Part shown: positions 911-32,767 of the stretch, in pieces
Position numbering within the stretch: the first letter of the stretch is position 1
How the letters are laid out: each line of letters opens with the position of its first letter
DNA from: Terriglobia bacterium
Lineage (GTDB): Bacteria > Acidobacteriota > Terriglobia > JAIQFV01
Assembly (NCBI GenBank): GCA_020072965.1
Contig: JAIQFY010000043.1
Coordinates: forward strand, 1-42,542
Direction of reading: 5' to 3'
DNA length: 42,542 nt
Translations under genes and position numbers: made by a program
Notes under the pieces: model-generated
The model's input: only the letters and a program-made list of their open reading frames with translations
Told to the model about the DNA's origin: nothing
The model's database searches: none

Positions 911-1082
911 GCCCCCCCAATGCAACCGCTTGAAATTAATGGGTTTAAATTGGTGTTGTCGAAATTGCTCCTTGGGAGGGATTATTGCCAGTATGTCTCG
1001 AGGCAGTAGTAATTACACTTTCTGTGAGTCGCCATAACGTTTTATGTCAGAGAGGGTGGTGGGGGATATATTTGAAGGAAAG

Positions 1083-1298
1083 CGATGAATCGGTTAAATC
1101 GCGGGAGGGGGAGGATGGTGGACACTCCGATGAATCGGGGTGCTGTTTACAATGAGATTCGCAGCACCCGGATTAATCCGGGTGGGTAGACGTTCACAGA
1201 AACAAATCCAAACCGTTTCAACGGTTTCTAAATGAAACCGATGAATCGGTTGAATCCAGGGACGTTGGAGACAATTAACACCCCGATAAATCGGGGTG
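1083..1298. repeat. cluster of short palindromes with CCGAT/ATCGG core
   Basis: At least four palindromes lie within about 220 bases: CACCCGGATTAATCCGGGTG (1165-1184, perfect), AAACCGTT/AACGGTTT (1210-1227), AACCGAT/ATCGGTT (1236-1251) and CACCCCGAT/ATCGGGGTG (1279-1298). Imperfect copies start at 1083 and 1122. The blocks around 1122-1148 and 1278-1305 also share the flanks ACAC before and TG-GTTTA after, so they look like diverged copies of one element. The rest of the 570-base gap between pilA and the next gene shows nothing else that codes. Confidence 0.6.
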
Positions 1299-1314
1299 CC
1301 GTTTAAGAGACCAC

Positions 1315-1383: not shown

Positions 1384-3339
1384 CTACCTCGCATTCAATT
1401 CCGCTTCTATCTTCTTTCTCAGTGCTTGATCCTTGGCATCCTGTAGGGCACGGGTCCATTGTGAGCGTGCCTCCTCAACCCGGTTCAGGCTCTTTAGTGT
1501 GTTCCCGAATTGCCACCGCGCTTCAGCATCACCCGGACTGAGCCGCACCAAATGGTCCCATGTGTCCGCAGCGGCTTGCATATCCCTACGGGCCATTTGG
1601 AGCCGGGCCAGGTTGTAAAGCGCTTCCTTCGACTGAGGGTCGATTCCCAAAGCCCTACGAAAGGTTTTTTCGGCAGCGGAGAGATCGTCTCTTCTGAACT
1701 GGAGTGTTCCCAGGTTGTTGTAGGCCTCCACAAGACTGGGATCGACCTGGATGGCGTGCTCAAAACTCTGGAGGGCGCGATCGCTCTCAGTGAGGTTCAT
1801 CTGGGCTAGACCGAGGTTGTTCATCACCGCGGGGTTTTCAGGCGCGAGTCTCGCCGCTTCGAGCAGTTCCCGCTCCGATTCGGCAAAGCGCCGGTGTTCC
1901 AACAATGCCAGTCCTCGATTGTAACGGACATCCCAGGAATGCGGTCGGTTCACCTCGGCCCTGCTCCACAAGGCCACGGAATCGTGCCAGATTCTGTTTC
2001 CCTGGGCAGTCCCAGCCACGAAACCAACAACAAGGGCCGCGGTCAGTCCTATTTGAGGCCAGCCTGGCTTGATTCTTGTTAGCAGCAGAATCCAGAACAG
2101 CGCGATTCCGACGCAAAATCCCACGGAAGGTAAGTACGCGTATCGATCCTGCACCAGGTACTCGGGGTGAAATGCCCTTAAATTCAGCACTGGGAGCAAT
2201 GGAATCCAGAACAGAAGACCCGCAAAAACAAAGGCATTGATGCCTGTTTTGTCTTGATACGCCGACAGAAACCTCCAGAGCCAAAACAGAATAATCGCGA
2301 GGAGGACCAGGATCAAAGTGGAGATCAAGAATGCCCGGGATGTTCCGCTGTGAATAAAGTCAACACAGTAAATCAGGCTCAGCCGGAATGGAAAAGTCAA
2401 GTGCACCAGATAGCTTGACAGCACTGAGGGAATCGTGAGGATCACATCGAATATGGCGACGTCCTTGTTGAGGGGGTGCTCCCAACCTAGAAATCCCAAC
2501 CCCCGGTAGCGGTCCAACAGATAAAGGAGACTGATGATAAGGAAGCCTGAAGAGTGAACCAGGACTCTGCGAATCCCGTCGAAGGGATGACTTGGCAGCC
2601 GGCTGCCTCCATTTCTTTCCGGGAGCAGCAACTCCAGCCCGATCACAACAAGAGTCAGGCTCAGGGCGCTCTCTTTGAACATCGTCGAAACAGCAAAAAA
2701 AGTCAGCGACAATATCCAGTACCGGATGGCATGCGTGCTTCGTGCCCGCAAATAAAAGAACAGCGAGAGCAGGAAGAATAACGTCAGAAGCGCATGCGCT
2801 CCTGCGGTCGCCCACGCGATCGCCTGCGAATGAATGGGATGGACGGCAAACAAAATGGCAGTCACTGCGGCGATGGACTTTTGGCCGAGAAATTCCCGTA
2901 CTGTGAGAAACACGAGCAGGGTCGCCCCCAAGTGCACCAGGATACTCAAGAGGTGCCACCCGGGCGTCCACAGGTGGAACCAGCGGTAGCCTAACATCAG
3001 ACAGAGAGTAAACAGGCGGCCGTGATAAGGGAGAGCAATGTCCCTCGAATAATTCGTTGAAAAGACCAGTTCATCCGTGGTCAGCACCCTCACCAGATTG
3101 AATGGGGCCCGAAGGCTTTCATTGTGGACGATGTACTTGACGTCATCAAAAACGAATTCGCCGGAGAGGGAATTGGCAAAGGCCAGGAGGACGAGCAAGA
3201 GCAGGGCAGCAAGGATTTTATAGGTAGGAAGAGATTCAAGCCAGGAGAACTCGAGCGGAAGCAGGGCCAACGCCGATTCGGAGGGTTGACCGAAGGTCGG
3301 TGTCTGCCTGTGAACTTTGGGTTTCGATCTGGATCGCAC
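1384..3339 (-). CDS. TMTC-like multi-pass membrane protein with C-terminal TPR repeats (candidate glycosyltransferase)
   Basis: The protein has 651 residues. Residues about 40-460 hold roughly ten or more hydrophobic segments. After the first segment comes an acidic pair in FVFDDVKYIVHN (about 62-73), as in the first lumenal loop of GT-C enzymes and the TMTC/PMT O-mannosyltransferases. Residues about 470-650 hold about five TPR repeats (for example the stretches starting RYNRGLALLEH, NNLGLAQMNL, NNLGTLQFRR, YNLARLQMAR). That architecture, a GT-C-like membrane half plus periplasmic TPRs, is typical of TMTC-type proteins, which transfer sugars to proteins. Lying between pilR and pilA, it could modify the pilin; this is inference. 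The start is GTG 3339; an in-frame stop lies just upstream, so no longer form is possible. No clear ribosome-binding site is visible. A non-catalytic TPR membrane scaffold is the main alternative. Confidence 0.75.
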   Translation of the reverse strand: MRSRSKPKVHRQTPTFGQPSESALALLPLEFSWLESLPTYKILAALLLLVLLAFANSLSGEFVFDDVKYIVHNESLRAPFNLVRVLTTDELVFSTNYSRDIALPYHGRLFTLCLMLGYRWFHLWTPGWHLLSILVHLGATLLVFLTVREFLGQKSIAAVTAILFAVHPIHSQAIAWATAGAHALLTLFFLLSLFFYLRARSTHAIRYWILSLTFFAVSTMFKESALSLTLVVIGLELLLPERNGGSRLPSHPFDGIRRVLVHSSGFLIISLLYLLDRYRGLGFLGWEHPLNKDVAIFDVILTIPSVLSSYLVHLTFPFRLSLIYCVDFIHSGTSRAFLISTLILVLLAIILFWLWRFLSAYQDKTGINAFVFAGLLFWIPLLPVLNLRAFHPEYLVQDRYAYLPSVGFCVGIALFWILLLTRIKPGWPQIGLTAALVVGFVAGTAQGNRIWHDSVALWSRAEVNRPHSWDVRYNRGLALLEHRRFAESERELLEAARLAPENPAVMNNLGLAQMNLTESDRALQSFEHAIQVDPSLVEAYNNLGTLQFRRDDLSAAEKTFRRALGIDPQSKEALYNLARLQMARRDMQAAADTWDHLVRLSPGDAEARWQFGNTLKSLNRVEEARSQWTRALQDAKDQALRKKIEAELNAR

Positions 3340-3536: not shown

Positions 3537-4907
3537 CTATTTCTGAATATTATATTTCGCCATGTAATGCCGAAAGGAGCGGTAGGTCATCTTCAAGAGC
3601 TCTGCGGCCCGGGTCTGGACCCCGTCGGCTTTTCGCAGGGCGGCTTCCAGAAGCTTTCTTTCCACCTCGGAGATCTGCTGATCGAAATTGATTCCCTCCT
3701 GAGGAAAAGACGCCTCGATTTCAGGAATCTTAATCTCGGGCATCACAATGCGCTCCGGCAATCGCTCCAGTTTCAATGTTTCCGTGGATTCAAACGCCAC
3801 TGCCCGCTCGATCGTGTTTTCGAGCTCACGGACGTTACCCGGCCATTCATAGGCCTCCAGCGCTCCGTACACTTCCGGTTCCACGGCGGTAATGCTTTTA
3901 CCCATCGTTTTAGAGAAGCGCTTTACAAAGTGATCTGTGAGGGCTCGAATATCTTCCCTTCTTTCCCGCAGCGGCGGCACGGGGATTGGAATCACCGAAA
4001 TTCGGTAATACAGGTCCTCGCGGAAGCTCTTCTCCGCCACCATCTTCTGCAGGTTGCGATTGGTGGCGGCAATGACCCGCACATCCACTGCAATCTCCTC
4101 GGTTCCCCCGACCGGGCGAATCTTGAGATCCTGGAGGACGCGGAGCAATTTCACCTGCATGGTGGGGCTCATTTCTCCGATCTCGTCCAGAAAGATCGTC
4201 CCCCGGTCCGACACCTCAAACAGTCCTTTTCGATTGCTGGAGGCGCCCGTAAACGCCCCTTTGACGTAACCAAACAACTCCGACTCCAGGAGCGTCTCGG
4301 GAAAGGCGCCACAGTTGATGGAGGTAAAGGGCTCGCGCTCGCGCGGACTTAACCGATGTAGGGCCCGGGCCACCAGTTCCTTCCCCGTGCCGCTGTCTCC
4401 GGTGATCAGGACGGTGCTATTGGTGGAAGCGACCGTGTGAATCAACTCGGTCAACGCCCGCATGGCGGCGCTCGTTCCAATGAGGTTCTCGATGCCGCTC
4501 AAACGTCCGAGTTCATGCTTCAGGCCACGGTTCTCCTGCCGGACCTTCATTTCCTGCAATTCTTTCTCGACCACGACCTGGAGCTCATCAACAAAACTCT
4601 CGGTTTTGATGATGTAATTGTTCGCCCCCATCCGGAGCGCCTGGATCGCCGTCGAAGTTGAGGCAAAGGCCGTCATAAAGATGAACACGGCGTCAGGCAC
4701 CAGCGAACGGGCTTCTTGCAAAAGCTCGAGCCCTGTCATGCCTGGCATCTTGATGTCAGAGATCACCAGGTCAACGGATTCTTTGGAGAGAAGATCCAGG
4801 GCAGCACGACCACTGGAGGCCGTTTTCACCTCGTAGCCGTCCCGCTTAAAAACGATTTCCAGCAGGTCACAAATCGATTTTTCGTCGTCAACAATGAGAA
4901 GTTTCAT
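3537..4907 (-). CDS. pilR: sigma-54-dependent response regulator PilR
   Basis: This NtrC-family activator has 456 residues. The receiver domain (1-120) has the acidic pair D7/D8, the phosphoacceptor D51 (VISDIKMPG) and K101. The AAA+ domain (about 140-370) has Walker A GDSGTGKE (170-177), the sigma-54 contact loop GAFTGA (217-222) and Walker B GTIFLDEIGEM (236-246). A Fis-type helix-turn-helix closes the protein (about 432-452). All residues needed for phosphorylation-dependent sigma-54 activation are present. It lies 197 bases downstream of pilS and upstream of pilA, the order seen in Geobacter and Myxococcus, where PilR activates pilA. A sigma-54-like element at 866-887 fits that role. The C-terminal domain matches Fis type but its target site is not known here. 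Confidence 0.93.
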   Translation of the reverse strand: MKLLIVDDEKSICDLLEIVFKRDGYEVKTASSGRAALDLLSKESVDLVISDIKMPGMTGLELLQEARSLVPDAVFIFMTAFASTSTAIQALRMGANNYIIKTESFVDELQVVVEKELQEMKVRQENRGLKHELGRLSGIENLIGTSAAMRALTELIHTVASTNSTVLITGDSGTGKELVARALHRLSPREREPFTSINCGAFPETLLESELFGYVKGAFTGASSNRKGLFEVSDRGTIFLDEIGEMSPTMQVKLLRVLQDLKIRPVGGTEEIAVDVRVIAATNRNLQKMVAEKSFREDLYYRISVIPIPVPPLRERREDIRALTDHFVKRFSKTMGKSITAVEPEVYGALEAYEWPGNVRELENTIERAVAFESTETLKLERLPERIVMPEIKIPEIEASFPQEGINFDQQISEVERKLLEAALRKADGVQTRAAELLKMTYRSFRHYMAKYNIQK

Positions 4908-5104: not shown

Positions 5105-6751
5105 TCAATGGACAGGGACAGGGACCTTGCAGGGGAGGGAGATTTCAAACACAGATCCCAGTCCCTGGCTCGAGTGCGCTTCGATGCGTCCGTGATGCGC
5201 CTGGACAATCTGATAAACAATCGCCAACCCTAACCCGGTGCCGTTGGCAAATGAAGAGTGGAACGGCTCGAAAATTCTGTCAATCCGATCCTCTTCAATG
5301 CCCACGCCGGTATCCCGAAACACAATTCTGACTTCGTCGTCGTCGGCCTTCTTCAGTTCGATGGTCAGGGTGCCGCCCTCCGGCATGGCCCGGATGGCAT
5401 TATGCGACAAATTCCAAAATACTTGCTTGATGAGATCGGGGTCGAGATGGCACTCCAGCGGACGCTGATCCGAGACACTTTCGATCCGATGCTGGGCGGT
5501 GACCTCCGGATTGTTATGCAACAAAGTCACCGTATCGTCCATCAACTCATTTAAATCCACGCTCCGGGGGTTGTACGTAATCTGACGCGAATAGATTAAA
5601 AACCCATCAATAATCTTATTGAGGCGCTGCGACTCGTGGAGCACGATGCTCATCAATTTATCCTGCTCTTCGTTCATGGGGACTTCCTTCCGGAGCAATC
5701 CCACCGAACCGGAAATGGAAGCCAGCGGATTGCGGATCTCATGAGCCATCCCCGCCGCCATTTCGCCCACGGCGGCCATGCGGTCCTTGGCGCGGATTTC
5801 CCCCTCCAAGTGTTTCATCTCAGTGAGGTCCTGAAAATTCACGAGGTATCCAATCAAAACATGCTGGTCCCCAAAGAGCGGAGAGGTAGACAGTCCGAGA
5901 AATTTTTCCTCCCCGGGCCGGTCTCGAAGAATGGAATCGACGCGGACGTTGCGACGCCCATCCCTCAGCTGATTGATGCAACGCTCAAAGTCGACGTCGG
6001 GAAAGGTCTCCTTGATAGATCGGCCAAGCACCTCGTCCCGGCGACGCCCAACGATTTCTTCCCCGGCGGGATTGAGCATGGTCACTTTTCCATCGAGGTC
6101 GGTGGTCAACAATCCTCCACGCAGGCTTTGAATGATATTATCATTGAGCGCCTTCAAGCTGGCGAGGGCTCCCGTCTTGTTAACCAGCTCTGCACCCTTG
6201 CGTCGAAGGTTTTCAGATAGATATCCGCTGAAATAACCCACCACGAGAAAAGCGAATGTGTTCAGGGTAATGAAAGCAATCAATGTCCTCAAAGATGGAC
6301 GTGACAGGGCGCTGCTCGGAATGAATCTCGCCTGGGTCAGGAGGAGAAGAGAAGCGTGTACCATGGAGGCCGAAAAAGCGGTAAGCAGGGCGCCTCGCTG
6401 ATAAAGGACCAGGCTGGAAAAAGCGATCGGTAGAAAATAGAGGATCGAGAAATAGCTCTCGGTTCCTCCCGTGAGGTAGATGATTAGGGTGATAGACACC
6501 AGATCGGTGACAATATGAGTCAGGGCTTGGACCAGGTAGTTGGAGGAATAGTTGACCCACAGAGAAAAAATCAGGGTCAAGGTCAAGGCAACCAGCAACA
6601 CCCCCATCACCGCCCCAAAAGGCACAGCGGGGGTGGCAATCCGCTCCACCCCGACCAGGATGCCGAGGATTACCGTGTAGATGACCACGCGGAGCTTTAG
6701 AAACCACAGCAACCAGTCACGGATCTCAGACGCTGCTACCGCGTTAGCCAC
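5105..6751 (-). CDS. pilS: membrane sensor histidine kinase PilS
   Basis: The protein has 548 residues. Six hydrophobic segments fill residues about 15-180, the usual PilS membrane anchor. A PAS domain follows (about 200-310), then the HisKA phosphoacceptor helix with H337 in GMAHEIRNPL. The ATP-binding domain has the N box (N447, NLSHNAIRAM), the G1 box DTGVG (481-485) and G2 box GTGLGLA (504-510). All catalytic motifs are intact. The likely partner is PilR, encoded next. In the family, PilS senses pilin level through its membrane domain. The start is GTG 6751 with GGAG about ten bases upstream. The 217-base gap to pilC is filled by tandem repeats, so pilS may have its own promoter. Confidence 0.92.
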   Translation of the reverse strand: MANAVAASEIRDWLLWFLKLRVVIYTVILGILVGVERIATPAVPFGAVMGVLLVALTLTLIFSLWVNYSSNYLVQALTHIVTDLVSITLIIYLTGGTESYFSILYFLPIAFSSLVLYQRGALLTAFSASMVHASLLLLTQARFIPSSALSRPSLRTLIAFITLNTFAFLVVGYFSGYLSENLRRKGAELVNKTGALASLKALNDNIIQSLRGGLLTTDLDGKVTMLNPAGEEIVGRRRDEVLGRSIKETFPDVDFERCINQLRDGRRNVRVDSILRDRPGEEKFLGLSTSPLFGDQHVLIGYLVNFQDLTEMKHLEGEIRAKDRMAAVGEMAAGMAHEIRNPLASISGSVGLLRKEVPMNEEQDKLMSIVLHESQRLNKIIDGFLIYSRQITYNPRSVDLNELMDDTVTLLHNNPEVTAQHRIESVSDQRPLECHLDPDLIKQVFWNLSHNAIRAMPEGGTLTIELKKADDDEVRIVFRDTGVGIEEDRIDRIFEPFHSSFANGTGLGLAIVYQIVQAHHGRIEAHSSQGLGSVFEISLPCKVPVPVH

Positions 6752-6925: not shown

Positions 6926-6974
6926 CCTATCCCCTATCCCCTATCCCCTATGACCTATCACCTATCACCTATCC
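6926..6974. repeat. tandem 7-bp repeat (CCTATCC/CCTATCA), overlaps pilC stop
   Basis: About seven copies of a CCTAT(C/G)(C/A)-type 7-mer run through the intergenic end and over the pilC stop codon (6969-6971). It is the reverse complement of the 7-mer in the repeat at 6775-6816, so the two arrays could pair across about 110 bases. Slippage here could alter the pilC end or the spacer. Confidence 0.8.
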
Positions 6975-8174
6975 CGACAGCTTATCAATGAGCGTAAACA
7001 GCGGCAAGTACATTGAAATTACGATTCCGCCCACGACCACGCCCAGGAACACAATTAACATGGGCTCCATAGCGGTCAGCAAATCCTTGACGCCGGCATC
7101 CACTTCTTCCTCATAAAACTCTGCAATCTTTGTCAACATGGCGTCCATAGCGCCGGTTTGTTCGCCCACGGAAATCATCTGGGTCACCATTGGGGGAAAG
7201 ATATTGGATTGTTTCAGGGGATCAACGATCGTGCGTCCCTGTTCTACTGCTTTCCGGGTGTCTTGGATGGCCTTTTCGATCACGGCATTCCCCGCCGTTT
7301 TTGCCGTCACATCCAGGGCCTCCAGCAGTGGGACACCGCTGGTGATCAAAGTGGAGAGTGTGCGTGAGAACCGGGCGACCGCAATTTTTCGAAGCAACAT
7401 CCCAAAGACAGGGAGTTTCAGGAGCAAGGCATCCACGTTGTACCGGCCGGCTTGCGTGGAGTAATAGGAGCGAAATGCGACAGCGAAGATGCCCAGACCA
7501 AAGAGGATGAACAGGCCGTAACGCGTCATGAAACGACTCAACGCAATGACGATTTGTGTGGGTATGGGGAGTGGAACCCCCAAACCCGCAAATAGGGTAA
7601 TGAAGGTGGGTACCACATAAACCAAGATCAGGGCGACCACGCCCATCGCAATGGTCATGATGGAGCAGGGATAAATCAGGGCGGAGCGAACGGCCCGCTT
7701 CAACTTTACCGACTTCTCAATGTAGGTGGAAAGGCGCTGCAAGATCGTATCCAGAATGCCGCCGGCTTCTCCGGCGGCAATCATGTTGGTGTAAAGATCG
7801 TCAAACACCTTGGGCTGATTGCGCATCGCATTGGCAAGGGTGGAACCGCCTTCCACGTCAGAGCGGACGGCCGTGACCACTTTCTTAAAAACCTTGTTTT
7901 CCATCTGCGAGCCGAGGCTTTCGAGCGCCTGCACCAGGGGCAAGCCGGCATCGATCATGACAGAGAATTGCCGGGTAAAAATCGCCAGCTCCTTGGCCTT
8001 GACCTTCCCTCCAAAGGAGGGACCGGCAAACCCCTTCCGTTTCTCTTTGATTGCCAGCGGGCTGACTTGCTCACGGCGCAAAATGGCTGCCAGCACCTGC
8101 TGGTTGTCAGCTGTCCGCTCTCCGGAAATGGTAGTTCCCGTTCTTGTTCTAGCTCGATACGTATATACAGGCAT
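6969..8174 (-). CDS. pilC: type IV pilus inner-membrane platform protein PilC
   Basis: This is the polytopic platform protein (GspF/PilC family) that couples the PilB and PilT motors to pilus assembly. It has 401 residues, the normal family length. Two homologous T2SSF domains are visible (about 65-190 and 265-390), each with the family pattern F-x-R-x-x-x-x-L-I-x-x-G-x-P-L-x-x-A-L and a G-E-x-x-G-x-L/M motif (AAGEAGGIL about 133-141, SVGEQTGAM about 335-343). Hydrophobic segments lie at about 170-195, 218-238 and 372-392. ATG 8174 has GGAG seven bases upstream. The gene sits 105 bases after pilT. The stop codon lies inside a 7-bp tandem repeat. Confidence 0.94.
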   Translation of the reverse strand: MPVYTYRARTRTGTTISGERTADNQQVLAAILRREQVSPLAIKEKRKGFAGPSFGGKVKAKELAIFTRQFSVMIDAGLPLVQALESLGSQMENKVFKKVVTAVRSDVEGGSTLANAMRNQPKVFDDLYTNMIAAGEAGGILDTILQRLSTYIEKSVKLKRAVRSALIYPCSIMTIAMGVVALILVYVVPTFITLFAGLGVPLPIPTQIVIALSRFMTRYGLFILFGLGIFAVAFRSYYSTQAGRYNVDALLLKLPVFGMLLRKIAVARFSRTLSTLITSGVPLLEALDVTAKTAGNAVIEKAIQDTRKAVEQGRTIVDPLKQSNIFPPMVTQMISVGEQTGAMDAMLTKIAEFYEEEVDAGVKDLLTAMEPMLIVFLGVVVGGIVISMYLPLFTLIDKLSG

Positions 8175-8279: not shown

Positions 8280-9404
8280 TTAATGCGACACCTTATAAGA
8301 GGGATGAACCGGCCGCTTGTAGGCTTGAGTCACCACCCCGGCGCCGCGGTTGATCATCTCCTGCAGTTCGTCCACATTCGATGTGTGACTCAACGCCGTC
8401 TGGAGCGTGATCTGCTTCTGGAAGTAAAGTGTCGCCAACGACTGGTTGAAGGTCTGCATCCCAAACTTCTCCTGTCCCGCCTGCATAGAGGAGTAAATCT
8501 GATGGATCTTGTCTTCACGGATCAGGTTGCGGATCGCCGCGTTCGGAATCAGGATTTCCATGGCCATCACCCGTCCGCTGCCGGAAGCCCGGGGCAGCAG
8601 CGCCTGCGTGAGAATGGCTTCGAGCACCAGAGAGAGTTGCGCCCGGATCTGGTTCTGCTGGTGGGAGGGAAACACGTCTACAATGCGGGTAATCGACGAA
8701 ATGGCCGAATTGGTGTGCAGGGTGGCAAAGGTCAAGTGGCCGGTCTCGGCAATGCGTAACGCCGATTCGACCGTTTCAAAGTCCCGCATTTCACCGATCA
8801 GGACGACATCCGGATCCTCGCGCAAGGCCGATCGCAGGGCATCGCTGAAGGAATGAGTGTCGTTATTCACCTCCCGCTGGTTCACCAGGCAGTTCTTGTG
8901 AGGATGCAAATATTCGATGGGGTCTTCGATGGTGACAATGTGTTCGTGCCGGTCGGAATTAATCTTGTCGATCATGGCGGCCAGCGAAGTCGATTTTCCA
9001 CAGCCAGTGGGCCCGGTCACCAGGATCAACCCGCGGGGCTTATCGCACAGCGTGCGTATGATGGGGGGCAAGCCCAGCTGATCGAAATTCCGAATGGAAA
9101 AAGGGATATTCCGAAAGACCGCCGCGACGGCCCCTCGCTGATGAAAAACGTTGGTTCGAAAACGCGCCAGCCCCTTGATGCCGAATGAAAGGTCAAGCTG
9201 GAGGTCCTCTTCGAGGCGTTTCTTCTGGGAGTCCGTCAGGACGCTGTAGGCAAGCTGTTTAGTGTCGGCGGGTGTCAAGGGAGGCGTATCCAGTGGGCGC
9301 AGCACCCCGTCCACCCGGATTTGTGGAGGTGACCCCGTGGTGATGTGAAGATCACTGCCGTTCTGCTCCATCATTGTTTTCAGAAGGTCACTGAGCGAAA
9401 TCAT
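8280..9404 (-). CDS. pilT: pilus retraction ATPase PilT
   Basis: This hexameric ATPase powers pilus disassembly and twitching. It has 374 residues. Motifs in order are Walker A GPTGCGKST (131-139), the Asp box TIEDPIEY (158-165), Walker B with GEMRD (204-208), the His box HLTFATLHTN (223-232) and the PilT-specific AIRNLIRE (290-297) required for retraction. The GEMRD and AIRNLIRE signatures separate it from PilB. It has no N-terminal GspE domain and no zinc-binding cysteines. It follows pilB after an unusual 503-base gap that holds a CRP-type palindrome, so it may be driven from its own regulated promoter. Confidence 0.95.
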   Translation of the reverse strand: MISLSDLLKTMMEQNGSDLHITTGSPPQIRVDGVLRPLDTPPLTPADTKQLAYSVLTDSQKKRLEEDLQLDLSFGIKGLARFRTNVFHQRGAVAAVFRNIPFSIRNFDQLGLPPIIRTLCDKPRGLILVTGPTGCGKSTSLAAMIDKINSDRHEHIVTIEDPIEYLHPHKNCLVNQREVNNDTHSFSDALRSALREDPDVVLIGEMRDFETVESALRIAETGHLTFATLHTNSAISSITRIVDVFPSHQQNQIRAQLSLVLEAILTQALLPRASGSGRVMAMEILIPNAAIRNLIREDKIHQIYSSMQAGQEKFGMQTFNQSLATLYFQKQITLQTALSHTSNVDELQEMINRGAGVVTQAYKRPVHPSYKVSH

Positions 9405-9907: not shown

Positions 9908-11674
9908 TCACAGAACTGTTTCACGGAGCACTTCTTCGAGGGTTGTCACTCCATCTTTTATTTTCCGCAGGCCACTGCCGCGCAAGGAAATCATTCCGTT
10001 CTCTATAGATTTCTTGCGTAATTCCAGCGAGGACGCGCCCACCATCACCAACTCACGAATATCGTCGGAGATTTCCATCACCTCGTACAATCCCACACGC
10101 CCCTTGTAGCCGGTCCCGTTACACAAGGGACATCCCTTCCCCTTGAAAAGTTTCACTTTCTTCGCTTCTTCGGGTGAGAAACCAGCTTCGACGAACACCT
10201 TATGCGGCGTGGGAACCTCCTCCTTACAGACCTTGCAGATCCGGCGCACCAAACGCTGGGCGGCGATCAAGTGGACCGATGTCGCCACCAGGAAGGGCTC
10301 AATCCCCATATTCATCAGGCGCGAAACCGTCGAAGGTGCATCGTTGGTGTGTAATGTGGAGAGAACAAGGTGACCCGTTAAAGCCGCCTTGATGGCGATT
10401 TCCGCAGTTTCGAAATCACGGATTTCACCCACCAGAATGATGTTGGGGTCCTGGCGTAGAAAGGCCCGCAAAGATGCGGCAAAATTCAGGCCGATCTGTT
10501 CCTTCATCTGCACCTGGTTGATGCCCGCCAATTGGAACTCGACGGGATCTTCCGCGGTCATGATGTTGGTTTCGGCCGTGTTCAGGCGCGAAATGGCCGA
10601 GTAGAGCGTGTTGGTTTTGCCGCTGCCGGTGGGACCGGTTACCAGAACCATGCCGTAGGGCTTAAGAATCGCGGCTTCAAACTTCACAAGCGACTCCGCT
10701 TCAAACCCCAGCCGGGTCATATCGAGCATCAAGTTCTCTTTGTCCAACAAACGCAGAACTACTTTTTCGCCATAGAGGGTCGGCAGAACGGAAACGCGGA
10801 AATCGAGTTCCTTGCGTTTTCCCTGATGCCTCATCTTCATCAGGATACGGCCGTCCTGCGGCAGGCGTTTCTCCGATATATCGAGTTTTGCCATGATCTT
10901 TAATCGGGAGATGATGGCATCCCTGAGTTTCAAAGGGGGCGTCATGATGTTGTAAAGAACACCGTCCATGCGGAACCGCACCCGATATTCTTTTTCGTAA
11001 GGCTCAAGATGAATATCGGAAGCCCCCCGTCGCAGGGCGTCGACCAGAATGAGATTCACGAGCTTTACGACAGGCGCCTCTTCGGCTGCCCGCTCCAATT
11101 CCGCCAGGTCAACCTGCTCTTCAGTACCCGTCTGAAGTTCCACGTCTGCGTCAATTTCACCGGCGATGACTTCCCCATCTCCCCCCGAACCGCTGATCGA
11201 GTCCATGACCTTCTTGAGTTCGATGGCGTGTGGGGACCCGTAATATTTTTCGATAGCCTCCGTAATAGAGGACTCTGACGCCACCACAGGCTCGATATTA
11301 AAGCCCGTCATGAACTTGATGTCGTCGAGCGCAGTCACATTGGTGGGATCGAGCATCGCAATGGTGAGCACCGATCCGACCCGGCTCAAGGGGAGTAGAT
11401 GGTATTTCTGGGCAGTCTCCCGGGGGATTAAGTTGATGACGGCGGTGTCAATTTCGAAATAGGAGAGATTGATCGAAGGAACCCCGTAGCGTCGGGAGAG
11501 GACTTTTGCAATATCCTCATCGCTGACATAACCCAACTTCACAAGGCACTGGGCCAGCCGCGTTCCTGAGCGACGCTGCAGCTCAACCGCTTCGTCCAAT
11601 TGTGTCGTGGTGATCAGGTTCTCGCTGACGAGAAGATCACCTAGTTTTGAGGCCATTCCTTCTCTTACCGACAC
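9908..11674 (-). CDS. pilB: pilus extension ATPase PilB (GspE family)
   Basis: This ATPase drives pilus assembly. It is about 588 residues long. The N-terminal GspE_N/MshEN-type domain covers about 10-150 and can bind c-di-GMP in some homologues. The ATPase core has Walker A GPTGSGKT (about 347-354), the Asp box AEDPVEF, Walker B with GEIRD (about 416-420) and the His box HLVLSTLHTND. Two CxxC pairs (CKVC, CPLC) form the zinc site typical of PilB/GspE and absent from PilT. Three starts are possible: GTG 11680, GTG 11674 and ATG 11656. GGAGG lies one base before the first and seven bases before the second, so 11674 is preferred; ATG 11656 would give the classical beginning MASKLGDLL. The neighbouring PilZ protein hints at c-di-GMP control. 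Confidence 0.93.
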   Translation of the reverse strand: MSVREGMASKLGDLLVSENLITTTQLDEAVELQRRSGTRLAQCLVKLGYVSDEDIAKVLSRRYGVPSINLSYFEIDTAVINLIPRETAQKYHLLPLSRVGSVLTIAMLDPTNVTALDDIKFMTGFNIEPVVASESSITEAIEKYYGSPHAIELKKVMDSISGSGGDGEVIAGEIDADVELQTGTEEQVDLAELERAAEEAPVVKLVNLILVDALRRGASDIHLEPYEKEYRVRFRMDGVLYNIMTPPLKLRDAIISRLKIMAKLDISEKRLPQDGRILMKMRHQGKRKELDFRVSVLPTLYGEKVVLRLLDKENLMLDMTRLGFEAESLVKFEAAILKPYGMVLVTGPTGSGKTNTLYSAISRLNTAETNIMTAEDPVEFQLAGINQVQMKEQIGLNFAASLRAFLRQDPNIILVGEIRDFETAEIAIKAALTGHLVLSTLHTNDAPSTVSRLMNMGIEPFLVATSVHLIAAQRLVRRICKVCKEEVPTPHKVFVEAGFSPEEAKKVKLFKGKGCPLCNGTGYKGRVGLYEVMEISDDIRELVMVGASSLELRKKSIENGMISLRGSGLRKIKDGVTTLEEVLRETVL

Positions 11675-12354
11675 AAACACGCCTCCGGGAATACTTTTAA
11701 TCGAATTTCAAGGTCAATCAAAGCAAATAGTGGAGAGGACCCAAAAGAATTCTTCACAGAAAATGCCGATGGTTATGTGCCAAATGAGTTTTGCTGCTGA
11801 AGCTGGAGTTTCCTCCTCCCGCCCCCACAGCACCTTGACGCAAAAGCGATAGAATCATTGAATTGTTATGAGACTTTGTCGAAGGAGCAGACAACTCCCT
11901 CCACATGGGCCAATCGAAGAGTCTTAAGGTCGGGGGACCAAATGTGGGTCGATTAAACCAATGCTCGATGGCCAAAAACACTGTGTTCCTGAAAAGCACA
12001 AACACAGAATCCTGGCCACCACCATCACCTCGATCCTCTGGGGCAACCTCCTGAATCGTCCAAGGCGAATTTTGGCCCAACCTCTAGAAACTTAAATAGA
12101 CTGCCGTTACCGACACTAGCTCCTTCGCCTGCTTGCGTAACATAGTGAATCATGCATGCAAAGTCAAGGCCTTTCAGGAGCTGCCTTGTCCACCTCAGAA
12201 GTCTTCAGGCTTCCTTGTCTTGACTCCATTTCTCTTCTCGCGATAGAGTGAACCGAGCACTGTGGTTGAATTGCAACAGTCCCGACATTAGAATCGCCCC
12301 ATTGGAGGTGCGGAAATCAGGAGACCCGGAAGGAGAAAGAAACCCCGCGGACCT
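11675..12354. other. 680-base divergent intergenic region, pilB / glycosylase
   Basis: This gap separates the minus-strand pil locus from the plus-strand ntrYX operon, so it should hold both promoters. I could not pick a convincing -35/-10 pair or sigma-54 site for either. A minus-strand frame at 11754-12080 is open for 108 codons but has no recognisable features and is probably not a gene. Confidence 0.5.
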
Positions 12355-27628: not shown

Positions 27629-29275
27629 CTAATGCATTACAATCTCCGAATCCTTCGCGGGCTTCCGCATGAACAGAAGCAATGGAAGCATGGCCAGCAT
27701 CAGCACGCCCAACATCCAAAAATCATCCACAAACGCCTGCATGGCGGCATTCCGCTCGAGCAAGCCATTCAACAAACCCAGGGAATGTTGCTGGGCGGTT
27801 GCCGCGCCAGATCCCGAGTTCGCGACAAACTGCTGGACTCCCTGAACACGGGACTGGAAATTGGGGTTGAGCGGATTGATGAATTCGCTTAAGTGCGCGG
27901 AGTGAACCTGCTGCCGTCGCGACAACACCGTGGCGACCGCCGCAATTCCGAAGCTGCCGCCGAGATTGCGCATCAGGTTAAATAATCCTGTGCCTTCGTT
28001 CATGGTCTCCCTGGGCATCGCGGCAAATGCCGCGGTGTTCACTGGGATAAACAAGAAGGCCAGGCCGATTCCCTGCACAATGCGGGGCCAGATAAAGTTC
28101 GCGAATCCTGCCTCCAGATTAAATTGTGACATCTGAAAGACCGAGGCGGCGGTCACGACCAATCCAATGAAAATTAAGATCCGGGGATCGACTCGTTTGC
28201 TGACTAGGGCGCCCACCAGCGGCATCATTAGCAGGGTTGCGATGCCCCCCGGCGAAATCACCAGACCGGAGAGCATGGCCGTGTATCCCATCAAGCTCTG
28301 CAAATAAATCGGGAGCAAGACGATCGAACCGTACAGCACAAATCCGGTCATAAAAATAAGAACCATCCCCGTTGAAAACGTCCGATCTTTGAGGATACGG
28401 AGGTTGACGACTGGATGAGCCACACGCAATTCCCATATGACGAAAAAGACCAAAGCGAGCGCCGAACAAATTGCCATTCGAAAGATGAATCCCGACTCGA
28501 ACCAATCCTCGCGCTGACCCTTGTCAAGGATGATTTGAAGGAAGCCGAGTCCCAGCGCCACCATGCCGAGCCCGACGGCATCGATCTTTCCGACCTTGTT
28601 TTTCAGCGCCTTGATATAAGGAGGATCGAACACCACCAGCTGCGTCATGAAAATGGAAAGTGCTCCCACCGGAAGGTTGATAAAAAAGATCCATCTCCAC
28701 GAATAGTTGTCTGTAATCCATCCGCCCAGGGTGGGTCCGATGATCGGCGCAAACAGGACGCCCATACCGTAAACCGCGGCGGCCATTCCGCGTTTCTCGG
28801 CTGGGAACGATTCGAACAGGATGGCCTGCTCCGTCGGTTGCAGTCCCCCGCCGCCTAATCCCTGAAGGATACGAAAGAAGATCAGCATGCCCAGTGAGGG
28901 GGCCAAACCACACAGCAGGGAGGACACGGTGAACAAAATGACGCAGAGTTGATAGAACCGCTTGCGTCCGATCCGGCCGCCCAGCCAAGGGGAAATAGGA
29001 AGAATTATGGCATTTGAGACGAGATAGGAGGTCAGCACCCAGGTCGACTCGTCGACCCCTGCCGAAAGACTCCCGGCGATGTGCGGCAAGGCCACATTGG
29101 CCACACTGGTATCCAGCACTTCCATGAAGGTTGCCATGGTGACCGTGACCGCGATCAGCCAGGGGTTGATCCGGGGCATCCCGTCGACGTGAAAATTTAC
29201 ATCCTCCCCGACAGTTTGGCTTGGAGCTGTGCTTTGGGTTTCTTGTAAGAATACATCCTGTGTTATGGCCGACAT
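27629..29275 (-). CDS. EmrB/QacA-type (DHA2) MFS multidrug transporter
   Basis: The protein has 548 residues and about fourteen hydrophobic segments, as in the DHA2 family of drug:proton antiporters. Typical features are MATFMEVLDTSVANVALPHIAG in segment 1 (motif D1 region), WVLTSYLVSNAIILP in segment 2, GGRIGRKRFYQ (motif A) and RILQGLGGGGLQP (motif B, about 135-147). It works with the membrane-fusion protein (29408-30697) and TolC-type channel (30819-32411) encoded just upstream. The three together form a tripartite pump spanning both membranes. GAGG lies eight bases before ATG 29275. Substrates cannot be told from sequence. Confidence 0.93.
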   Translation of the reverse strand: MSAITQDVFLQETQSTAPSQTVGEDVNFHVDGMPRINPWLIAVTVTMATFMEVLDTSVANVALPHIAGSLSAGVDESTWVLTSYLVSNAIILPISPWLGGRIGRKRFYQLCVILFTVSSLLCGLAPSLGMLIFFRILQGLGGGGLQPTEQAILFESFPAEKRGMAAAVYGMGVLFAPIIGPTLGGWITDNYSWRWIFFINLPVGALSIFMTQLVVFDPPYIKALKNKVGKIDAVGLGMVALGLGFLQIILDKGQREDWFESGFIFRMAICSALALVFFVIWELRVAHPVVNLRILKDRTFSTGMVLIFMTGFVLYGSIVLLPIYLQSLMGYTAMLSGLVISPGGIATLLMMPLVGALVSKRVDPRILIFIGLVVTAASVFQMSQFNLEAGFANFIWPRIVQGIGLAFLFIPVNTAAFAAMPRETMNEGTGLFNLMRNLGGSFGIAAVATVLSRRQQVHSAHLSEFINPLNPNFQSRVQGVQQFVANSGSGAATAQQHSLGLLNGLLERNAAMQAFVDDFWMLGVLMLAMLPLLLFMRKPAKDSEIVMH

Positions 29276-29407
29276 TTCAAAGTCCTCTTGCTACCCGGAT
29301 GGTTTGTCGATCAGGGATCACTCCCACTTCCGAAGTCAAGGGGTTGTCCGGGGCGTCATTCTATAGGGCCCCCTAGGACAATCTCGACCGTCGGTGAGAA
29401 CCCCTCA

Positions 29408-30697
29408 TCAACGGGTATGAATGGTGACCACCACGTTCATGCCGGGGCGAAGGACCTCTCCCGGCTTCTGCCCGGTCAGTATGATCTTCACAGGAATTCG
29501 TTGAACCACCTTGACGTAGTTGCCCGTGGCATTTTCCGGGGGGAGCAGGGAGAATACTGCGCCTGTGCCGGCGGCGATGGAGTCCACCTTTCCGTGGAAC
29601 ACTTTTCCAGAATAAGTATCAACATCGACATCAGCACTTTGTCCCGCCTGCACATTCTTCAACTGCGTTTCTTTAAAATTGGCCAACACCCAGACATCAT
29701 CCAGCGATACCAGGGCCATCAACGGCTGGCCAATCGCGACATTCTGGCCAATCTCCACGCTCTTCTTGCTGACGATCCCGTGAAGCGGGGCATAGATCTT
29801 GGTGTAGCTCAGTTCCAGCCGGCGCGCTTCCAAATCAGCCTCCGCCCGTTTGACTTTTGCATCAGCGTTGGAGGCTTGTGATTGTGAGATGGAGACCTGC
29901 GCCGGCGCGGTCTCCGCGCCAATTAAGCGGGCCTGAGAATCGTTTAACTGGGCCTTAGCCTGCGTGACGCGGGCCTCGGCCCAGGCGACCTTGGCGCGTG
30001 CCGCCTGTTCATTTTGAACCGCGCTTGTGACGCTCGCCTGGGCCGTCACTGCACCATTCTCGGCGGACTCTAGGGTTTGACGGGGGATCTCCTCTTTGGC
30101 GGCCAGCTTCCGGTAGCGGGTCACATCATCCTCAGTTTTTTTCAAATTGGATTTTGCGGCGACTACACCCGACTCTGCCCCCCGGAGCATTGCCCGCGTT
30201 TGCTCAAGGTCTTTTTCCGCCGTTTCCACGCCGGCCCGGGCGCTGGTCACACCGGCCTTCGCCTGATCGACCAGCGAGGTTGTGGTCTGGCTGGTGACAG
30301 ACACCTGGGTCGATGAAGCCCTCGCCGTAGCGCGGGCCACGGCCAGATCCGCCTCGGCCTGCGCGAGACGGACCTGGTAGTCCCGGTCGTCAATCTCCGC
30401 CAGCAACTGCCCCGACTGGACTTCCTGATTGTCCAGAACGTAGACATTCTTAATGAATCCGGTCGCCTTGGGGCTGATGACAATAATATGTCCGGCCACT
30501 TGAGCATCATCGGTGCCGACATGCCCCGCGGAGTAAATCCTCCACCCCCCGAACACAAGGGCAAAGACCAGGGTTCCGACAATCAGCCCGATCCGAAGCT
30601 GTCTCTTACGGCGCGCATTAAAGCCGTTTCCATTGCTGACAGGCGCTGTCTTGGAAGGGTTTTCATTCGGTGTCACTGCATTTGGCTCGTTTGCCAT
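29408..30697 (-). CDS. EmrA/HlyD-type membrane-fusion protein
   Basis: This is the periplasmic adaptor of the tripartite pump (429 residues). One N-terminal membrane segment (about 34-53) is followed by the HlyD signature GTDDAQVAGH (about 59-68) and the first biotinyl-lipoyl half-motif. A long helical hairpin rich in Ala, Gln and Glu follows (about 110-275). The second lipoyl half, YTKIYAPLHGIVSKKSVEIGQNV, comes next, with a beta-barrel domain ending in GMNVVVTIHTR. The start at 30697 is preferred to GTG 30703 because GAGGAGA has the right spacing to the ATG. The coiled hairpin is long, as in EmrA proteins that dock to TolC. Confidence 0.92.
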   Translation of the reverse strand: MANEPNAVTPNENPSKTAPVSNGNGFNARRKRQLRIGLIVGTLVFALVFGGWRIYSAGHVGTDDAQVAGHIIVISPKATGFIKNVYVLDNQEVQSGQLLAEIDDRDYQVRLAQAEADLAVARATARASSTQVSVTSQTTTSLVDQAKAGVTSARAGVETAEKDLEQTRAMLRGAESGVVAAKSNLKKTEDDVTRYRKLAAKEEIPRQTLESAENGAVTAQASVTSAVQNEQAARAKVAWAEARVTQAKAQLNDSQARLIGAETAPAQVSISQSQASNADAKVKRAEADLEARRLELSYTKIYAPLHGIVSKKSVEIGQNVAIGQPLMALVSLDDVWVLANFKETQLKNVQAGQSADVDVDTYSGKVFHGKVDSIAAGTGAVFSLLPPENATGNYVKVVQRIPVKIILTGQKPGEVLRPGMNVVVTIHTR

Positions 30698-30818
30698 AAC
30701 CACATCTCCTCATGACCCATCGTTCGAGTTTCCTGGGTCAGTCCAAAGTCTGATCCACCTGCCGAGCGGAGCCCATTGGACGCATCGAAATTCTCATTGG
30801 CGGGCTCCACCCTTCTGC

Positions 30819-32411
30819 TTACTGATAGATTTTTTCAACCTGGCCCACCGCCCGAACCAAACCGACGCGGGCCAGGTTGAACAGATACAACGCTTCGATC
30901 CTCCCATCCCGCGCCTGCGCCAGAGAGGTTTGGGCATTGACCACTTCAATGTTGCTCGTGACACCCTCCTGAAACCGGTCCCGGGCGAGTTCGAGCTCAG
31001 TCAGCGATAACTTAAGATTTTCTTCCGCCACCACCACTTGCTGACGGGCTGATTCCAAGGTCTTCAAGGCGCGGCGGACCTCTAATTCCACTTGTTGTTT
31101 GACATCGGTCAACCGGATCGCCTCCTCTCGCGTTCGAGCGGACTGTTCCGCTATTCGCCCTTCCCGGCGCCCACCATCAAAAATGGGAAGGGTCGCGGCG
31201 ACCCCGTAGGTGCGAGTGGGAAGAGCCGAGTCGCTGGGGGTCAATCCGCTGGATCCATAATCCGCAAAAAAACCCACCGAGGGATACCGTTCCGCTTTGA
31301 CGGAACTCAACTGCAAACGTGCGGCGTGTTCCCGCTCCGCTTGCGACTGCAGTTCTATCCGGTTTTCATTGGAAATCGTGAGCGCCTCGGGTATGCTCAG
31401 GATGGGCTCGTCCCGAACCGTCAGGGTATCCGCCAGCTGGACCTCGATCGAGACATCCTTCCCCATCGTCTTCAGTAACCTTAATCGCGAATCCTCATAT
31501 TCGACCTGATCACTGAGCAGGCGTTGTCGTTGCTGCGCGAGTTGCACCTGCGCCCGCGTGACATCTACTGCCGTCCCCGTGCCGGCATCCTTTTGGTGCA
31601 CGGCCAGTTCCAGCAAGCTCTCGTTCAAGCGGATATTCGCCTGCGTGGCCTCGATGTGAGCCGCCGCCTGCAGGACCCTGTAGTAGAGCACCGCCACCGT
31701 CGCAATCGTGTCACGCCGGGCCGCCTCAGCCTCCAGGGTCGAAACTTTGTAGCCAGCGCGTGCGGCCTGGTACTGACGGATGGCTGCGAAGTTGATCAAA
31801 TTCTGTTGCAGGAAAGCACGGGCATCAAAACGATCGAAGGGGCCGACGAGCGCTCCAATGGTGCTGAACCCAGGAACGGGAATCCTGGAAAAGTCAATCC
31901 CTTGAGCTTTGAGGTTCAAAGTAATATTGGACTGAGACACCTGGCCATCCAAATTCGGCAGGAGAGCCGCCCGCGCCTGGTTCGATCGCCCTTTCGCAGC
32001 TTGTATTTCCTCAGCACTCAATTGCACCTGGGTATTGTTCTGGAGTGCCGTCTCAACCGCCTGACGCAACGTCAGCACTTGAGGAGATTGTGCGGCCGGT
32101 TGAGCCGACGCAGCCCCCTGGCTTGGAGTTGGTGACTGGGAATATGCCGGGAAGTTGGCGAGCACCAAAACTACGCCCAGCATCACCGCCTGACTGGCCC
32201 GAAGTAGTACAGGAAACGGTTCAGACAATCCCCTCGACTTCCAGGACCACTTTCGGCGCTGCAGCAATCCATTGCCAGCAAGTATTAAAAGCGTGATCAC
32301 GACGCCTTCAATTCCCAAGACCTGGTACTGCTGTATCAGCGAGGTCCAAAGATCAGATATTTTTCTGAAGTCCAAAACTTCCATGAGTTTTTGCATTGCC
32401 GCCCACCTCAT
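30819..32411 (-). CDS. TolC-type outer-membrane efflux channel with unusual N-terminal extension
   Basis: The protein has about 530 residues. The two OEP repeats are visible: the first from about 110 (LTLRQAVETALQNNTQVQLSAEEI) and the second from about 330 (LSIPEALTISNENRIELQSQAERE). The exit channel of the tripartite pump is their known role. The first 95 residues are odd. Before the apparent signal sequence (VMLGVVLVLANFPAYSQ, about 74-90) lies an extra stretch with a hydrophobic segment (GVVITLLILAGNGLL, about 35-49). ATG 32411 overlaps the TGA of the STAS gene (TGATG), implying translational coupling. An alternative start, ATG 32396, has a better ribosome-binding site (GAGGTG); an internal start nearer the signal sequence is also possible. 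Confidence 0.88.
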   Translation of the reverse strand: MRWAAMQKLMEVLDFRKISDLWTSLIQQYQVLGIEGVVITLLILAGNGLLQRRKWSWKSRGLSEPFPVLLRASQAVMLGVVLVLANFPAYSQSPTPSQGAASAQPAAQSPQVLTLRQAVETALQNNTQVQLSAEEIQAAKGRSNQARAALLPNLDGQVSQSNITLNLKAQGIDFSRIPVPGFSTIGALVGPFDRFDARAFLQQNLINFAAIRQYQAARAGYKVSTLEAEAARRDTIATVAVLYYRVLQAAAHIEATQANIRLNESLLELAVHQKDAGTGTAVDVTRAQVQLAQQRQRLLSDQVEYEDSRLRLLKTMGKDVSIEVQLADTLTVRDEPILSIPEALTISNENRIELQSQAEREHAARLQLSSVKAERYPSVGFFADYGSSGLTPSDSALPTRTYGVAATLPIFDGGRREGRIAEQSARTREEAIRLTDVKQQVELEVRRALKTLESARQQVVVAEENLKLSLTELELARDRFQEGVTSNIEVVNAQTSLAQARDGRIEALYLFNLARVGLVRAVGQVEKIYQ

Positions 32412-32767
32412 CAAGAAATTCTTCTTCCGCCTGGAAATCCCTTTGGAGACGACTTAACCGTGCCGTGTTTGGAATCTGCCTCAATCTTCGACTGCTTCAA
32501 CTTCGTACCTTGAATCAGGTCATTCAGAAACATGTTGCAGCAGACAATTTTTATCCTCGGACAATCCACCTTCTTCAGTAGGTTCAGTCCCTCGCGGTCG
32601 ATGCTGGTCACCGATGAAAAGTCCAGGATGAGTTGTTGAACGTTTCCTTCCAGGATTTGAAGGCAAGTCTGCTTGAATTCCTGCGCCCAGGCCCCGCAGA
32701 TTTTACCTTCGATTTTGAGCTCGACGGTCCTTCCTTCATTGCTTTCCTTTTTCGAAATCTTAATCAT
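32411..32767 (-). CDS. STAS-domain protein, first gene of efflux operon
   Basis: The protein has 118 residues. A STAS fold covers about 1-95: beta-strand start TVELKIEGKICGAW, then LILDFSSVTSIDREGLNLLKK (about 46-66). In anti-anti-sigma factors the loop reads D-S-G-L with a phosphorylatable serine; here it is D-R-E-G-L, so the phosphoacceptor is replaced by arginine. The tail (about 97-118) is basic and probably disordered. It overlaps the TolC-type gene by one base (TGATG). A regulatory or membrane-lipid/partner-binding role is possible, but phosphorylation control of the classical type is not expected. Confidence 0.8.
   Translation of the reverse strand: MIKISKKESNEGRTVELKIEGKICGAWAQEFKQTCLQILEGNVQQLILDFSSVTSIDREGLNLLKKVDCPRIKIVCCNMFLNDLIQGTKLKQSKIEADSKHGTVKSSPKGFPGGRRIS

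Follow-up and report, generated by a model that had tools for sequence, protein, structure and literature searches.

The window analyzed here, a stretch of 42,542 nucleotides that makes up a whole contig (JAIQFY010000043.1) of a Terriglobia bacterium, carries a type IV pilus locus on its minus strand in the order pilB, pilT, pilC, pilS, pilR, P0001 and pilA, and the contig ends approximately 300 bases past pilA. The genes pilB (9908–11680) and pilT (8280–9404) were assigned by the models TIGR02538 (780 bits, cut-off 676) and TIGR01420 (498 bits, cut-off 319), and pilC (6969–8174) by a T2SSF match of 227 bits, well above the Pfam cut-off; its score against the best NCBIfam PilC model, 483 bits, is below the cut-off of 700. 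The product of pilS (5105–6751) matches 6TM_PilS, HisKA and HATPase_c, all above the Pfam cut-offs, that of pilR (3537–4907) contains Sigma54_activat and Response_reg domains, and pilA (304–813, with the ATG at 813 and the stop at 304) encodes a prepilin with an N_methyl motif (PF07963) above cut-off, which is the presumed substrate discussed below. Between pilR and pilA, a 651-amino-acid open reading frame with a GTG start and no internal stops (P0001, 1384–3339, minus strand) was confirmed and assigned as a GT-C/TPR protein by its Pfam matches; this is where the first-pass annotation, made from the letters alone, had placed the gene, and both neighbors were identified by Pfam.

P0001 is separated from pilA by 570 bp with palindromic repeats in between, so that the two genes need not share a transcript. 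The repeats (window positions 1075–1305) are of the kind CACCCCGATT(A/T)ATCGGGGTG, for which 21 strand-wise matches with at most one mismatch were found genome-wide, compared with 0 for the reversed control, and they resemble a dispersed REP-type element. A sigma-54-like pattern was found 35 times against a chance mean of 42.6, which is no excess. At positions 1–81, the start of an open reading frame (MSQTKKRRVFSREFKRLA...) leaves the contig end on the minus strand and is transposase-like as judged by eye only; at 27629–32414, also on the minus strand, consecutive genes for MFS_1, HlyD and OEP (outer membrane efflux) proteins are arranged like a tripartite efflux set.

P0001 comprises a membrane domain at amino acids 30–467 (1939–3252) and a TPR domain at amino acids 468–640 (1420–1938). 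Several Pfam TPR families score above cut-off in the latter, with the best stretches between amino acids 509 and 602, and the C-terminal part of the predicted model forms approximately five TPR helix pairs from amino acid 469 to 634, with TPR-type fold matches, so that the C-terminal repeats proposed at first sight are borne out. Within the membrane domain, amino acids 129–234 (2638–2955) match PMT_2 (PF13231) at 38.4 bits (cut-off 26.1). The full-length model has a pLDDT of 91.0 and a pTM of 0.90. Because a PDB fold search with this model gave TPR-type entries only in the best 50, the membrane domain was folded alone using AF2 (pLDDT 91.7, pTM 0.93), from a first alignment of 48 rows that was cut to 44 by leaving out rows from L055 and two from L074 and L077; a profile search of PDB sequences likewise had TPR chains in the best 60 listed. 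The separate domain gave ten Foldseek matches at E ≤0.001, which are AglB, STT3/OST, ArnT and PglB entries. Using VIA, it was aligned with AglB (3waj; Z 21.0, 333 aligned residues, 4.4 Å), yeast STT3 (8agb; Z 20.5, 331 aligned, 4.6 Å), Pmt4 (9i5k; Z 18.8, 355 aligned, 4.6 Å) and ArnT (5f15; Z 18.5, 334 aligned, 4.3 Å), and among the best 50 VIA matches listed, 46 are entries for GT-C enzymes or complexes containing them, the other four being GPI-transamidase U subunits, which are GT-C-like. A GT-C structural match, the absence of which had been set beforehand as the finding that would count against a GT-C nature, is thus clear by both methods, and the N-terminal domain of P0001 is predicted to adopt the fold of the GT-C glycosyltransferase superfamily. 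ArnT, PMT and STT3/AglB/PglB have this fold in common with P0001 (Z 15.7–21.0) yet are only 9–14% identical to it, and they are not known to have a TPR tail; a shared GT-C fold is by itself no demonstration of function.

The combination of an N-terminal GT-C domain with C-terminal TPRs is found in TMTC1–4, the eukaryotic O-mannosyltransferases of CAZy family GT105, and P0001 was therefore read against the TMTC motifs M1–M7 as listed in PMC7801869, with residues counted in an alignment of 64 GT-C domains and numbered as in P0001. The acidic pair D65–D66 (M1; 3142–3147), which follows the first predicted membrane helix, is present in 64/64 rows, as are P168, E223 and P317; H129, R399 and Y402 occur in 63 rows and K222 in 62. 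The acidic pair, whose absence among homologs would have counted against the first-pass reading, thus persists together with several further motif residues, and P0001 has the acidic motif that characterizes the first extracytoplasmic loop of GT-C enzymes. For M4, KE(T/Q)xxT, P0001 has K222–E223 (2671–2676), followed by S-A-L-S, and for M7, ERxxY, it has D398-R-Y-A-Y402 (2134–2148), in which R and Y are kept and E is replaced by D. M6 (PxxP) is matched by P380 and P383; for M5 (DW), P0001 has YCVDF and a clear equivalent is absent, in a region where the alignment is loose.

The remaining two motifs are altered in the window genus, i.e., in the window genome (G000) and a congener (G001). In place of M2, SHKSYRP, P0001 has YHGRL (Y105-H-G-R108 at 3016–3027), although Y-R-P is found in nearly all other rows: the M2 Arg, present in 62/64, is missing only in P0001 and G001, and the Pro, present in 61/64, is missing in these two and one more. 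In place of M3, RxD, P0001 has GAHAL, the acid (D or E) being present in 59/64 rows, missing in P0001 and G001, and replaced by Ser in three others; the own-genome paralogs of L079, L081 and L082 have GR(A/S/P)D at this position. In addition, the Glu at position 172 (62/64) is a Gln only in P0001 and G001. A third genome of the same family (f1), G002, retains Y-R-P, the Glu and the M3 acid, and the losses in P0001 and G001 represent one evolutionary change rather than repeated evidence. In TMTC models the M2 and M3 equivalents sit near the sugar, and their replacement, together with that of E172, indicates that the donor may have changed or that activity may be reduced; we consider a switch to another donor sugar or another acceptor more likely than an inactive enzyme. 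The 21 Pfam families listed for P0001 at E ≤1 do not include DUF1736 (PF08409), a loop of TMTCs. With this match absent and M2 and M3 replaced, P0001 was rejected as a member of the TMTC family proper, from which it also differs by its location in a bacterial pilus locus.

The corresponding gene lies downstream of pilR, at the same locus as in the window, in both G001 (60% identity) and G002 (47%). In the latter, three opposite-strand genes separate the enzyme from pilA (L065, 4022–9340), one of them PMT_2-like (25.6 bits, just below the cut-off of 26.1) and one with TPRs. A pilC ortholog at the limit used was present in 61 of 101 genomes of the class, and 13 of these 61 anchored genomes carry a GT-C/TPR gene within 10 kb downstream of pilC: 3/3 in f1, 7/19 in f4, 2/16 in f6 and 1/1 in f11, the last cut by a contig end, and 0/22 in f2, f3, f7, f8, f9 and f10 together. 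These counts were obtained by tblastn and a six-frame HMM search, as ORF calling drops genes under longer antisense ORFs. Seventeen of the 19 pilC-linked genes are on the pil strand, and fewer than one linked locus of 61 would be expected by chance, assuming seven such genes per 5.9 Mb genome. The linkage to pilus loci, which the first-pass annotation had suggested surveying in relatives, thus recurs in four families and is more than chance. The 48 anchored genomes without a gene within 10 kb (14/16 in f6), in several of which the contig ends within a few kb, indicate that the gene is not generally needed for pili.

One further f4 gene is located 12 kb from pilC, and in the f4 genomes G027 and G034 the pilC contigs break early and pilR, GT-C/TPR genes and pilA are found together on other contigs. 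In the f4 genomes G055, G041, G081, G034 and G027, pilA is flanked by one or more such genes ahead of it and one behind it, and the two sides belong to two different clades; G077 and G089 are exceptions to this pattern. In three f4 and f6 loci, a gene for a LolA-like protein (PF03548) comes directly after the pilins or the post-pilA enzyme (L067, 5750–6472; L071, 5289–5981; L070, 10810–11508), and f4 pilus loci contain ABC-transporter genes (PF00005 and/or PF12679; L071, 9054–10822; L068, 14423–15406; L069, 12963–13748), presumably reminiscent of Myxococcus pilGHI. A phylum survey at E ≤1e-60 identified GT-C/TPR genes in 40 of 99 genomes, 37 of them outside the class; among the 33 of these 37 that also have a pilC anchor, 0/33 have both within 20 kb on one contig, a comparison of two lists by eye under E-value limits in which neighbors on split contigs are invisible. 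The nearest out-of-class distance is approximately 28 kb (G179), and a scan of genome contigs with a single-protein query gave one distant locus.

A search of the window genome with P0001 identified five GT-C/TPR proteins that are 26–28% identical to it and a sixth, weaker match (25%), and no pil gene lies within 6 kb of any of the six in the stretches around them that were examined. Three GT-C/TPR genes occur in tandem on contig C80 of this genome (19876–25371, L079) and have motifs nearer to those of TMTC, GR(A/S)D and DYSFNQIP; three pilin-like genes are found at 93–1315 of the same contig, more than 18 kb from the tandem. In a tree of 64 rows, with which a quick tree agrees, P0001 and its G001 and G002 counterparts form a clade (support 100/100) inside a 24-row clade (100/99) containing 19 pilus-linked rows from f1, f4, f6 and f9. 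Of the six own-genome paralogs, five group with their G001 and G002 counterparts in another clade of 11 rows (100/100), none of them pilus-linked; the remaining paralog sits close to this clade on a long branch. The pilus-linked label changes 10 times on the tree, compared with a mean of 21 after shuffling, and 0 of 500 shuffles was as low; in f6 and f9, the label was also given to rows that neighbor a second pilC of lower similarity. The rows were picked by similarity and by closeness to pilC, with the short row L084_00 left out, and the share of pilus-linked rows is consequently inflated. Because the tree rows were partly chosen by location, the best location-blind evidence of linkage is a similarity search, in which the six best matches outside f1 (one in G055, three in G034, one in G041 and one in G027) are all in pilus loci; the seventh (G048, on a 7.6-kb contig) is in no pilus locus.

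The composition of the presumed substrate was compared among 45 pilins. The first-pass annotation had described the exposed part of the window pilin as rich in Ser, Thr and Gly; the description holds for Gly (0.14, toward the top of the range) and fails for Ser plus Thr, which at 0.15 is at the bottom (0.15–0.34; one other pilin is also at 0.15). A Ser/Thr-rich pilin was accordingly rejected as support for glycosylation in the window. The exposed Ser plus Thr content is 16% in the G001 pilin, 22% in the two G002 pilins and 25–34% in f4 pilins from loci with a GT-C/TPR gene, which often have a Ser/Thr-rich C-terminus, and the pilin argument thus fits f4 better than the window. By locus, the mean is 0.25 for the 20 pilins with the gene and 0.21 for the 25 without it (p 0.001), a difference confounded by family, as all f4 pilins are in the former group and 24/25 of the latter are from f6, with L094 counted as lacking the gene although an opposite-strand copy is present.

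We consider that P0001 is, with a probability of about 60%, a periplasm-facing, polyprenyl-phosphate-sugar-dependent GT-C glycosyltransferase of the type IV pilus locus whose likeliest target is a pilus protein, either the major pilin or a different one. The basis for this reading is computational: the predicted GT-C fold, the invariant acidic pair, K-E and D-R-x-x-Y, the TPR tail and the linkage to pilR and pilA. On this reading, the TPRs would bind a pilus protein, onto which the enzyme would transfer, on the periplasmic side of the membrane, a sugar carried by polyprenyl phosphate. A lipid-linked donor is suggested by the GT-C class, and a periplasmic location of the TPRs by the TMTC-like topology and by positive charges at the N-terminus and in loops near residues 200–206, 238–257 and 418–427. 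The TPRs are the probable acceptor-holding part and the pilin the probable acceptor, which may be O-glycosylated by P0001. The low pilin Ser/Thr content and the missing M2, E172 and M3 residues count against an active pilin glycosyltransferase, and would also fit a weakened enzyme.

P0001 would work like the TMTCs and TfpW, a likeness of action that carries no claim of membership of either. The tfpW gene adjoins pilA, and both TfpW and P0001 are GT-C enzymes encoded in a pilA locus; the likeness is one of fold class and gene location, and the TPRs and the position upstream of pilA, between pilR and pilA, are features of P0001. TfpW is described as a GT-C pilin D-arabinofuranosyltransferase of Pseudomonas aeruginosa group IV that is dedicated to the pilin of its own strain, the group I and group IV strains having mutually unrelated pilin glycosyltransferases (PMC11841053), and lipid-linked arabinofuranose has been proposed as the donor for P. 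aeruginosa pili (PMC11127046). Recruitment of substrates by the TPRs has been proposed for TMTC1–4 (PMC11292533). The Caulobacter protein FlmG, which joins a TPR part to a glycosyltransferase part and acts on flagellins (PMC7591256), resembles P0001 in this fusion, its substrates being filament subunits, but is cytoplasmic, belongs to an OTase-independent pathway and has an N-terminal TPR domain. The PglL/TfpO-type pilin O-oligosaccharyltransferases (Wzy_C) have the same presumed periplasmic job of pilin glycosylation; Wzy_C (PF04932) is not among the Pfam families listed for P0001 at E ≤1, and four Wzy_C proteins encoded elsewhere in the window genome could serve as pilin OTases instead of P0001.

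P0001 might instead be a GT-C enzyme that glycosylates a polysaccharide or lipid of the cell surface (LPS or exopolysaccharide) and has only the locus, or its regulation, in common with the pili, since the fold is not protein-specific and ArnT and arabinosyltransferases match it too; the at least five related paralogs in the same genome that have no pil gene within 6 kb would agree with this. The TPR tail of P0001 suggests a protein partner, however, the closest relatives outside f1 are pilus-linked and the linkage recurs in f1, f4, f6 and f11, and such a role is considered rather unlikely. Genomes carry several GT-C/TPR genes each, and a chance placement of one of them, P0001, beside pilA would fit the lack of linkage in the 33 out-of-class genomes, but is very improbable in view of the conserved locus in three f1 genomes at 47–60% identity; it was rejected on the pilus-linked best relatives, the 13/61 loci and the clustering of the label on the tree.

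It is also possible, if quite unlikely, that in the window genus the protein is a non-catalytic or reduced enzyme that serves as a TPR accessory of pilus assembly, like PilF/PilW or TfpY. PilW (2vq2) and PilF (2fi7) are among the TPR fold matches, but these matches are generic and the best NCBIfam PilW match (TIGR02521, 62.3 bits) is far below the cut-off of 154, which places P0001 outside the PilF/PilW lipoproteins as defined by that model. The loss of the M2 Arg and of E172 in G000 and G001 alone, the missing M2 Pro and M3 acid, and the Ser/Thr-poor pilins of both genomes (0.15 and 0.16) would suit an accessory, as would the lower identity between the two in the GT-C domain (0.54) than in the TPR domain (0.73); compared with the G002 protein, the two domains are equally diverged (0.46 each), and D65, D66, K222, E223, R399 and Y402 are all retained. 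The dN/dS of the whole gene between G000 and G001 is 0.21, with dS at 1.4 and near saturation, close to the 0.22 of pilA and above the 0.03–0.07 of pilB, pilT, pilC, pilR and pilS, and this counts against the accessory reading and in favor of a pilus-protein glycosyltransferase. For three unlinked paralog pairs compared between G000 and G001, the GT-C identities are 0.80, 0.75 and 0.57; the last is close to the 0.54 of P0001, so that fast divergence does not set the pilus copy apart.

A pilin-dedicated GT-C enzyme (TfpW) and GT-C enzymes with TPRs in animals (TMTCs) are already known. A TPR-bearing GT-C family in type IV pilus loci was not found among the titles and abstract openings searched, which covered open-licence PMC literature; for Geobacter GSU1498 no paper was found, and the text of PMC5174107 contains none of the terms GSU1498, TPR and glycosyl. 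More tentatively, TMTC-like GT-C/TPR enzymes might constitute a pilin glycosylation system of the class's own, in which the TPRs select the pilin and pilA is preceded by one to three copies, with an enzyme of a second clade downstream of it in part of the genomes; in the window genus, the rewired sugar-binding side and the drop in pilin Ser/Thr might then reflect a switch of donor sugar or modified site. If glycosylation of pilus proteins by P0001 is borne out, the way in which TPRs guide GT-C enzymes to an acceptor could be studied in bacteria, where these loci define the candidate substrates, and pilus glycosylation would be added to the biology of a group known here from genomes alone.
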